NCBI GenBank assembly: GCA_021323535.1
Contig: JAJONO010000015.1
Span: forward strand, 1-64,000
Direction: 5' to 3'
Length of the DNA stretch: 64,000 nucleotides
Origin: Bacteroidota bacterium
GTDB taxonomy: Bacteria; Bacteroidota; Bacteroidia; B-17B0; Aurantibacillaceae
Part shown: positions 21,368 to 23,814 of the stretch, piece after piece
Layout of the letters: each line of letters starts with the position of its first letter
Numbering within the stretch: the stretch's first letter is position 1
The notes under the pieces: generated by a model
Told to the model about the DNA's origin: nothing
What the model saw: the letters and a program-made list of their open reading frames with translations, nothing else
Databases searched by the model: none
Program-made: the position numbers and the translations under genes

Positions 21368-22480
21368 TTATTGAGAGAAGGCTCTGTCCCAGTCCTTAAG
21401 CATGGCTTCGTAACCTTGTTTTGAAATGACTTTCATAAATTCTTGGGGAGTTCTTGTATCATCGATCTCGAATTGTTCAAGCGATTGAGGATCGACAGAA
21501 TATCCACCCGGATTTGTTTTTGAACCGGCGCTCATAGAAGTGGCCCCGAGTTTAATGATATTGTCCCTGAACGTGGCAGTTTCTCTTGTAGAGACGGACA
21601 GTTCCACATCAGGATTAAAAATACGGTAAGCGCAGATAAGTTGTAACAGTTCTTTATCGGAAATATGTTCGTTGGAGATTTCAACTCCTTCGGCGGGACG
21701 AATTCTTGGAAATGAAATCGAGTATTTTGTTTGCCAGTATTTTTTCTGAAGATAATCGAGATGCATGGCGCAAAAGAACGAATCAGTTCTCCAGTCAGAA
21801 AGGCCCAACAAAGCGCCTAAACCTATCTTGTGAATTTTACTCTGACCGACTCTATCGGGTGTATCGAGCCTGTAAAAGAAGTTTGATTTTTTCCCTTTTG
21901 GGTGATGCAGTTTATAGGCTTCCTGATCATACGTTTCCTGGTAAACAAGAATGGAATAAACGCCTGCTTCGTGAAGCTGTGCATATTCTTCCTGCTCAAG
22001 CGGCTGAACTTCTACAGAAATATTTGAGAAATGAGGTTTGATTAATTTTATAGCATTTAAAAAATAAGGCACATGAACGGTAGCATTGGCTTCGCCGGTA
22101 ACAAGGAGAACGTGATCGAATCCAAGTTGTTTAATAGCTTCTGCTTCTTTAACGATTTCAGAATCGGTTAATGTCCGGCGTTTTATTTTGTTATCGAAGC
22201 TATACCCGCAATACGTGCAAATATTATTGCATTCGTTGCTAAGATACATTGGCGCGAACATCTGAATAGTTTTTCCGAAACGTTGCATGGTAAGTGCACG
22301 GCTCTTCTGCGCCATCTGCTCAAGATACGGAAGCGCGGCGGGAGAGATGAGAGCGGCAAAATCCTCTAAATTCAATTTTGATTTTGAAAGCGCGCGTTCA
22401 ACATCCAATATGGTTTTAGAAGAAATTTTATTTTGAATTTCGTTCCAGGTATATTTTAGATATTGATCTTTAAATGTCAT
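21368..22480 (-). CDS. thiH: 2-iminoacetate synthase ThiH
   Basis: Radical SAM enzyme that splits tyrosine to dehydroglycine for the thiazole ring of thiamine. The iron-sulfur motif is C84-x3-C88-x2-C91 (ECNNICTYCG). Length of 370 residues is typical. Its presence rather than ThiO (glycine oxidase) implies the tyrosine route. It follows the GxxExxY gene with a 66-base spacer containing one of the inverted repeats, and precedes thiF. Confidence 0.94.
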   Translation of the reverse strand: MTFKDQYLKYTWNEIQNKISSKTILDVERALSKSKLNLEDFAALISPAALPYLEQMAQKSRALTMQRFGKTIQMFAPMYLSNECNNICTYCGYSFDNKIKRRTLTDSEIVKEAEAIKQLGFDHVLLVTGEANATVHVPYFLNAIKLIKPHFSNISVEVQPLEQEEYAQLHEAGVYSILVYQETYDQEAYKLHHPKGKKSNFFYRLDTPDRVGQSKIHKIGLGALLGLSDWRTDSFFCAMHLDYLQKKYWQTKYSISFPRIRPAEGVEISNEHISDKELLQLICAYRIFNPDVELSVSTRETATFRDNIIKLGATSMSAGSKTNPGGYSVDPQSLEQFEIDDTRTPQEFMKVISKQGYEAMLKDWDRAFSQ

Positions 22481-22492
22481 ATTTTGGTTCTC

Positions 22493-22546
22493 GCCCGTTT
22501 CTCGCAGAGGCTCGCGAAGGTTTCGCTGAGTTTCGCTGAGAAAAAT
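22493..22546. repeat. terminal inverted repeat, 3' side of GxxExxY gene
   Basis: Contains TTTCTCGCAGAGGCTCGCG and then TTTCGCTGAGTTTCGCTGAG. In reverse complement it matches the flank on the other side of the gene (22940-22993), sharing TTTCTCGCAGAG exactly and the pattern GCTGAGTTTnGCnGAGAAAA. It lies between the GxxExxY stop and the start of thiH. Confidence 0.75.
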
Positions 22547-22939
22547 CTATAATTTATTTACAATTCGAATAATGTTATCTTTTAATGGAAAAGAATTAAA
22601 GTTAATTAGTAAGCCTAGCTTTTTATTATAAAGTTTCAAGTACGTAAGTAATTGTTTATGATGAACGTCGGCAAGACTTTCAACAGACTTGACTTCTACA
22701 ATTACTAATTCATTTACGATAATATCAAGACGAAAGCCAATATCCATCTTAATATTGTTAATGAACATAGGAACCGGAACTTGATTCCTTACGATAAATC
22801 CTCTTTTAATTAATTCCTGAGTTAAAGCTACCTCATAAACAGATTCAAGTAATCCTGGACCAAAATCTGTATGAATTTTAAATGCAGCACCTCTTATTTC
22901 GTACGAAATGTCATTTTCCTGAACGATATTTTTATTCAT
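22547..22939 (-). CDS. GxxExxY protein (PDDEXK_3 nuclease-like)
   Basis: A 130-residue protein with the signature GLLESVY (GxxExxY) at about 28-34 and a downstream D...ExK motif (FRLDIIV, then VEVKSV), the arrangement of the PD-(D/E)xK nuclease superfamily. The frame extends upstream to 23026, but that part (SRAEINAEFSREN) is translated from the flanking repeat, so ATG 22939 is chosen. It interrupts the thiamine operon between thiG and thiH and is bounded by imperfect inverted repeats. The family is widespread and often multicopy in Bacteroidota; its function is unknown, and it has no evident role in thiamine synthesis. Transfer as a cassette is inferred. Confidence 0.88.
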   Translation of the reverse strand: MNKNIVQENDISYEIRGAAFKIHTDFGPGLLESVYEVALTQELIKRGFIVRNQVPVPMFINNIKMDIGFRLDIIVNELVIVEVKSVESLADVHHKQLLTYLKLYNKKLGLLINFNSFPLKDNIIRIVNKL

Positions 22940-22993
22940 ATTTTCTCTGCTAAACTCAGCGTTAATCTCTGCGCGACTCTGCGAGAAATAACT
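22940..22993. repeat. terminal inverted repeat, 5' side of GxxExxY gene
   Basis: On the lower strand it reads TTTCTCGCAGAG, then TCGCGCAGAGATTAACGC, then TGAGTTTAGCAGAGAAAA, ending right at the ATG. It is the imperfect inverted partner of 22493-22546 and is built from about 11-base GCAGAG/GCTGAG sub-units. It probably also carries the leader of the gene. Confidence 0.75.
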
Positions 22994-23049
22994 GAGATCA
23001 GTACAAATATGTGTATTAACGATCATTTCAAATAAGACATTTAACGAAC

Positions 23050-23814
23050 CTATGAAGTAAGAAAACTTGTGAGAGGACTAGTAGCTTCCGCCGTTTTATT
23101 TTGTGTGGCCATTCCTGCTTCGAAGGCGTTTCTTCCGGCGAGAACTGCATTTTTAAAAGCTTTTGCCATTAAGATAGTGTTTTTCGCTGTTGCAATGGCC
23201 GTGTTTACAAGAACAGCATCCGCACCAAGTTCCATAGCAAATGCCGCGTGAGAAGGAAGTCCGATCCCGGCATCAACAATCACCGGCACATTGCTTTGCT
23301 CAATGATGATCTCAAGAAAATCCTGCGTCTTTAATCCTTTATTACTTCCAATAGGAGAACCTAAAGGCATTACCGCCGAAGTTCCGGCGTCTTCAAGTCT
23401 TTTACAAAGAACAGGATCAGCATGAATGTATGGGAGCACAACAAATCCAAGCTTCGCCAACTCTTCAGTAGCTTTTAGTGTTTCAATAGGATCGGGCATA
23501 AGGTAACGAGGATCGGGATGAATTTCGAGTTTCACCCAGTTTGTTTCTAAAGCTTCACGAGCGAGTTGCGCGGCGAAAACCGCTTCCTTAGCATTTCTTG
23601 CTCCAGAAGTATTTGGCCATAAAAATACATTCGCTTTACGCAAAGACTCGAGCATGTTATCGTAAGGGGCAGATGTGTCAATACGTTTCAGTGCAACCGT
23701 CACCATATTTGTTTCTGAAGCAATGATAGATTCGTACATCTCTTCGCTTGAGGCATATTTCCCTGTTCCCAAAAAAAGACGCGATGAAAATTCTTTGTCT
23801 GCGATCTTAAGCAT
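23050..23814 (-). CDS. thiG: thiazole synthase ThiG
   Basis: Builds the thiazole phosphate from DXP, dehydroglycine and ThiS thiocarboxylate. TIM-barrel protein of 254 residues; the Schiff-base lysine is Lys95 in WVKLEIHPD, and the phosphate-binding [19 protein letters not shown] segment is near the C-terminal end. It overlaps thiE by 8 bases. Downstream, the operon is interrupted by the GxxExxY cassette before thiH, its functional partner. Confidence 0.96.

Follow-up and report, generated by a model that had tools for sequence, protein, structure and literature searches.

A GxxExxY nuclease gene between thiG and thiH as a probable resident copy of a two-part nuclease-plus-repeat system

A small GxxExxY gene located between thiG and thiH in the window, i.e., the whole 64,000-nucleotide stretch of Bacteroidota DNA analysed here, is framed by two arms of short repeated words. 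The reading we favour, with a probability of roughly 0.6, is that this gene is the resident copy of a two-part system of a nuclease and its repeats, which works in the manner of RAYT/REPIN with a Cas4-like enzyme. The element would consist of a small Cas4/RecB-like PD-(D/E)XK nuclease and its own inverted arms, made of lineage-specific words of 7–8 nt that are spaced 8–13 nt, near one helical turn. The cassette with terminal inverted repeats that had been proposed in the initial annotation of this locus is supported by the arms found in the window.

The gene, its arms and its protein in the window

The features of the locus are the following (window coordinates; upstream and downstream in operon sense):
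21368..22480, minus strand: thiH, downstream neighbour of the GxxExxY gene
22498..22544, no strand: downstream arm, inverted relative to the upstream arm, with four words (CGCAGAG at 22503, CGCGAAG at 22513, CGCTGAG at 22524, CGCTGAG at 22534), spacing 10-11-10
22547..22939, minus strand: GxxExxY gene, 130 amino acids, PD-(D/E)XK nuclease fold according to profile matches and a structure model; likely start at the ATG at 22939
22941..22988, no strand: upstream arm, with four words (on the plus strand CTCTGCT at 22945, CTCAGCG at 22955, CTCTGCG at 22967, CTCTGCG at 22977), spacing 10-12-10
23050..23814, minus strand: thiG, upstream neighbour of the GxxExxY gene

The long inverted repeats noticed earlier around this gene are confirmed. 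The two arms, of about 47 nt each, are mutual inverted copies that match over one block of 25 nt (80%) and another of 21 nt (90%). The inverted-repeat score calculated on the true intergenic flanks only is 28, and none of 2000 dinucleotide shuffles scored above 15. The 7-nt, CGCAGAG-like words are 10–12 nt apart and hence lie roughly on one helix face. The arms adjoin the gene, with 1 nt separating the upstream arm from the ATG and 2 nt separating the stop codon from the downstream arm, and the open frame extends upstream to 23026, running through the arm. The PD-(D/E)XK protein is the sole ORF of at least 80 amino acids between them. The probability that this arrangement is an artefact of chance or base composition is negligible: A+T-rich intergenic DNA does yield weak inverted repeats, but this explanation is refuted by shuffles, displaced windows and reversed-pattern controls (see also below). 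One such weak repeat is a further A+T-rich inverted pair of 18 nt (22467–22484 and 23030–23047), which lies outside the arms, overlaps the thiH start and is probably due to chance.

The window protein matches PF13366 (PDDEXK_3; E 4e-37, 127.5 bits versus a curated cut-off of 22) and TIGR04256 (E 9e-38, 129.2 bits versus a curated cut-off of 35). In the search that gave PF13366, PDDEXK_3 was its only match, and the protein does not qualify as a HUH/Y1 tyrosine transposase (PF01797). The PD-(D/E)XK motif set, earlier read from the translation, is borne out by conservation: across 82 relatives, each of the putative active-site residues E32, D72, E82, K84, Q96 and Y100 (130-residue numbering) is either invariant or retained in at least 90% of the sequences, D and K being invariant and E at least 90% conserved. 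The structure model (pLDDT 89) adopts a PD-(D/E)XK fold with the Cas4-type protein SSO0001 (4ic1, Z 9.6) as best match, followed by restriction enzymes and Hjc resolvases (Hjc Z 6.8). QxxxY is a motif of the RecB/Cas4 type, and both the conserved Q96xxxY100 and a weak Cas4 profile match obtained with PADLOC (E 2e-4, other defence families unmatched) agree with this predicted Cas4-nearest fold.

Among known nucleases, those of the Cas4/RecB type are the closest in fold and share the conserved E, D, ExK and QxxxY residues. However, GxxExxY is a stand-alone protein of about 130 amino acids with its own repeat arms; its 130-residue window sequence contains no cysteines, so the Fe-S cluster cysteines of Cas4 are absent, and no CRISPR/RecBCD context was seen, the neighbours of the window gene being those of the thi operon rather than of CRISPR adaptation. 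PD-(D/E)XK homing endonucleases (e.g., I-Bth0305I) resemble GxxExxY as small nucleases of selfish type with the same broad fold that persist by insertion, but GxxExxY is not associated with an intron or intein, its sites are multiple and intergenic, and gene-less copies exist. The family is under purifying selection (median dN/dS 0.11 over 59 unsaturated pairs). A role as an anti-phage defence gene is not supported: PADLOC detected Cas4 only, none of 50,697 phage records contains GxxExxY, viral contigs likewise have no relatives, the window query matched just 5 plasmid records out of 72,556, and the genes are scattered over housekeeping operons.

Arms and words across the family and other phyla

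GxxExxY is a commonly annotated family, found in 45 of 61 genomes of the window's family and in 51 of 79 Cloacimonadota genomes, and the arm pattern of its genes is widespread and family-wide. When the upstream flanks of 101 family genes were compared with their reverse-complemented downstream flanks, the mean score was 22.2, versus 14.6 when arms were exchanged between genes and 14.2 for displaced windows. With the chain score, a label-free statistic in which one word has to occur at least twice in a chain on each side and a score of at least 6 is considered strong, 49 of the 101 genes had strong arms, a level reached by none of 101 shuffles and by one displaced window out of 113; about one sixth (16 of 101) scored 0, i.e., had no detectable arms. 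Among twenty more copies that were added afterwards is a divergent subfamily whose word is TACGAAT. Repetition of the survey in Cloacimonadota identified strong arms at 20 of 29 genes (0 of 29 shuffles, 0 of 56 displaced windows), and armed single loci also occur in Gemmatirosa (Gemmatimonadota), Sphingomonas (Alphaproteobacteria) and, from other Bacteroidota lineages, Bernardetia and Bacteroides. Two additional Gemmatirosa copies were scored, one of which has a very different word, GGACTGAAGA.

Some of these loci have features of their own. On a plasmid of Gemmatirosa kalamazoonensis, near position 1092494, a GxxExxY gene (L233) is surrounded by long arms of the 10-nt word GGACTGAAGA, with an inverted-repeat score of 93 versus a shuffle maximum of 22. 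Cloacimonadota genomes hold up to 16 GxxExxY matches (G165), several of them clustered, e.g., on contig C1 of G091 between 786 and 828 kb. In Sphingomonas parapaucimobilis, the gene (L187) is located between fabD and fabG and its downstream arm adjoins fabG, and this insertion may affect the expression of fatty-acid synthesis genes.

The arm word differs between protein clades and tracks the protein tree rather than the genome. A tree of 98 GxxExxY domains needs 19 word changes, versus a mean of 59 (minimum 50) with shuffled labels, and automatic word labels give 18 changes versus 46.5. Using genome identity as the label produces no signal (67 versus 65 shuffled). At non-homologous loci, the proportion of protein pairs sharing a word is 5–7% at 30–49% protein identity and increases to 19% at 50–59%, 57% at 60–69% and 70% at 70–79%. 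Because word sharing tracks protein identity at loci that are not homologous, the gene and its arms travel and evolve as a single unit. Recognition of the repeats by the cassette's own nuclease, as suggested in the initial annotation, fits this co-divergence of word and protein.

Where both neighbours of a copy agree in direction, 79 copies are in sense orientation and 2 in antisense, and copies lie inside operons. The simplest inference from this bias is a cassette that relies on host transcription and does not have a promoter of its own.

Dispersed copies, movement and the thi site

Copies of the repeat elsewhere in the same genome, with and without a gene, for which a search had been suggested in the initial annotation, were found. 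In the window's genome there are 42 copies of the outer word CTCTGCGAGA, versus one of the reversed control; several copies are short inverted pairs 50–140 nt apart and others single arms of about 45 nt. The genome contains nine GxxExxY matches, including fragments or interrupted ones, and inspection revealed arms at most of them, with either the shared word or one of their own (CGCAGAG on contigs C41, C119 and C137, CACAAAG on C100, CACATAG on C104 and C63). Other GxxExxY genes of this genome are thus also associated with repeats, the absence of which had been named as evidence against a cassette.

Across genomes, gene-less copies are dispersed mainly where a gene with the matching word is present. 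The CACATAG-type CCACATAGNCACATAG was found in 13 of 15 genomes with a gene of that word versus 8 of 46 others (p 2e-6), CATATAAG / CATATAAGGCATATAAG in more than two copies in 4 of 4 genomes with the matching gene versus 0 of 57 others (p 2e-6), and TTTCTCGCAGAG, the window's outer word, in at least two copies in 8 of 8 matching-gene genomes versus 4 of 53 (p 2e-7), these Fisher p-values being optimistic since the genomes are related and their independence is overstated. Under a stricter count of more than two copies of TTTCTCGCAGAG, as the gene's own arms can supply two, the figures are 5 of 8 versus 3 of 53. Doublets of CCACATAGNCACATAG reach 58 in one genome, whereas the reversed control never occurs, and copy numbers among relatives range from 0 to 58. 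Word copies are also numerous in some genomes in which no gene to match was found (20 copies in G007, 15 in G058, 10 in G045 and 10 in G057). The twenty TTTCTCGCAGAG copies of G007 (loci L225–L230) are mostly single arms with a common tail of about 50 nt, three of them in tandem in L230, and no GxxExxY gene of word TTTCTCGCAGAG was found in this genome.

The repeats might be spread by another mover (a Y1/HUH RAYT, a DDE transposase or slippage of host replication), GxxExxY being only a passenger with sites located in them by chance. Such word-rich genomes in which no matching gene was found would agree with this, as would the fact that the window's genome has three transposase genes of the Y1/HUH (RAYT-like) type (G000:C31:11237, C55:37324 and C85:33392). 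However, the exact CTCTGCG word does not occur within the loci of these three Y1 genes, the words track the GxxExxY phylogeny instead of the genome, and the pattern recurs in another phylum, all of which makes this explanation improbable.

In G041, G056 and G058, the gene-less copies are mostly 120–160 nt long (one has 84 nt), lie in A+T-rich surroundings and have a common layout: CCACATAGRCACATAG, a variable segment, a hairpin near the midpoint, a second variable segment and CTATGTGYCTATGTGG. Joint folding of these elements recovers the invariant outer stem only, as their centres misalign, and the central stem was therefore counted per element; most central hairpins are paired through differing sequences, a given position being occupied by C-G, T-A, G-C or A-T. 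The hairpins match no Rfam family, and at least 8 of 18 copies are located between convergent frames, near stop codons. At the G053 thi site, the upstream flank of the gene (L051) contains several arrays in both orientations stacked next to the gene, as might result from the insertion or duplication of additional gene-less copies there.

A paired centre maintained through different sequences would be compatible with an RNA-level element, in which pairing between the arms takes place within the operon mRNA and this RNA is cleaved or controlled by the nuclease; transcription would include both arms, in line with the 79:2 sense bias. This is nevertheless very improbable. Mismatches within arms include 103 G.U and 121 A.C, and this lack of a G.U excess favours recognition as DNA over RNA pairing. 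Moreover, the closest folds are mostly DNA nucleases, and the words also occur as single, unpaired arms.

Both gene-bearing and gene-less copies have been mobile over evolutionary time. The element L174 of G041 is absent from the congeners G058, G056, G069, G054 and G050, in which two convergent genes abut directly, is present in G171, and is reduced in G046 to a bare palindrome. It is flanked by GAATTAAT twice in G041 and by AACTAAT twice in G171, a direct repeat of 7–8 nt in which four bases are forced by stop codons. Target duplication at 16 element copies was not above chance, as judged by column profiles and longest shared words, and the empty-site search gave no clean empty site for the element L172. 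Gene-bearing L093 is 89% identical to L051 and lies at an unrelated locus, and pairs at different loci also occur within individual genomes (L116/L129, 81%; L033/L035, 71%).

The thi copy itself has barely moved: its insertion is old, probably transmitted vertically in some members of the family and decaying in other lineages. The order thiG-GxxExxY-thiH is found in eight genomes of five genera (G000, G037, G053, G045, G038, G035, G005 and G016), with the arms retained in most. At this junction, both arms are still present in G062 around a short in-frame gene remnant, while G069 has a short hairpin and G060 one array. The insert is absent from G024, in which thiG and thiH overlap, and from L076–L079 of other families, so the empty junction expected in relatives does exist. 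Because the same junction is occupied in five genera and relics are present in other relatives, the thi copy is not recent; a recent or simply non-autonomous hop into thi is not supported, the unit having been read as a non-autonomous cassette in the initial annotation, and the search for a target duplication at the thi site was negative. Conservation of the gene at the same place, which had been considered an argument against a cassette, holds for these five genera of the family and not for the other relatives, which have empty junctions or relics. The long residence in thi argues against a purely transient selfish element. It is consistent with the long-term residence that RAYT genes reportedly show (PMC8049555).

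Residence of this kind also bears on the alternative that GxxExxY is a domesticated regulator, kept for the benefit of the host, that binds the arms and dispersed words as operators or terminators, while the repeats spread slowly or otherwise. The strong purifying selection (dN/dS 0.11), the thi location common to five genera with arms mostly kept, the position of copies inside operons and the hairpins just past the stop codons of convergent frames (at least 8 of 18) are compatible with such a function. Against it, copy numbers of 0 to 58 among relatives, clean empty sites, internal-deletion derivatives and close gene copies at unrelated loci all need mobility, and we consider this alternative unlikely.

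A candidate mechanism and its relation to known systems

The favoured two-part reading draws on several likenesses to RAYT/REPIN systems (REPtrons, TIRtrons), for which published features were used (PMC8049555; PMC3733652): both comprise a nuclease gene with its own repeats on either side and gene-less singlets and inverted doublets (hairpins) dispersed in trans, with higher repeat numbers in the presence of the gene, and both show prolonged vertical inheritance and are rare on plasmids. The GxxExxY system is nonetheless not a member of this group, since its enzyme is of the PD-(D/E)XK type and that of RAYTs of the HUH/tyrosine type. In addition, its repeat is an array of spaced 7–8-nt words instead of a GTAG-tagged palindrome, and several paralogues with distinct words exist per genome, inside operons. 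Insertion sequences and MITEs mobilized by DDE enzymes likewise have terminal inverted repeats and internally deleted derivatives, but the GxxExxY unit is without a DDE transposase, a general target duplication was not detected, and its terminal inverted repeats are built from words repeated in direct orientation, which co-diverge with the protein. The tandem TAACTGA heptamers of Beggiatoaceae, examined as a possible precedent, are different; they were described as direct repeats and a nuclease was not named (PMC4679880).

In the mechanism we propose, several protomers would bind the words of one arm, bring the two arms together and introduce nicks or cuts at them. An arm or hairpin, either released or copied anew, would then insert elsewhere, mostly in gaps beside stop codons, and gene-bearing copies would persist only in sense orientation within operons because, being promoterless, they would be carried by host transcription. 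The nuclease would thus be the driver of repeat dispersal, acting through word binding and arm cutting. A stronger claim, to which we give somewhat less than an even chance and which is put forward tentatively, is that GxxExxY proteins represent a new class of transposition enzyme, in which a lone Cas4-like PD-(D/E)XK nuclease, without a recombinase or transposase domain, moves its own cassette and gene-less hairpins by means of arrays of 7–8-nt words, with a code diversified to at least a dozen specificities in several phyla.

In the open-licence literature, no published link between GxxExxY and these repeats was found and the repeat strings gave no relevant match, and the element class appears to be both widespread and undescribed. 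With it, GxxExxY gains a partner and a testable function, and many unexplained intergenic repeats of several phyla (CGCAGAG, CACATAG, CACAAAG, etc.) would be accounted for. The family also provides a naturally occurring set of small nucleases, the matching DNA words of which diverge, for the study of how specificity evolves and, if movement is confirmed, would constitute a REPIN-like system built on an unrelated enzyme.
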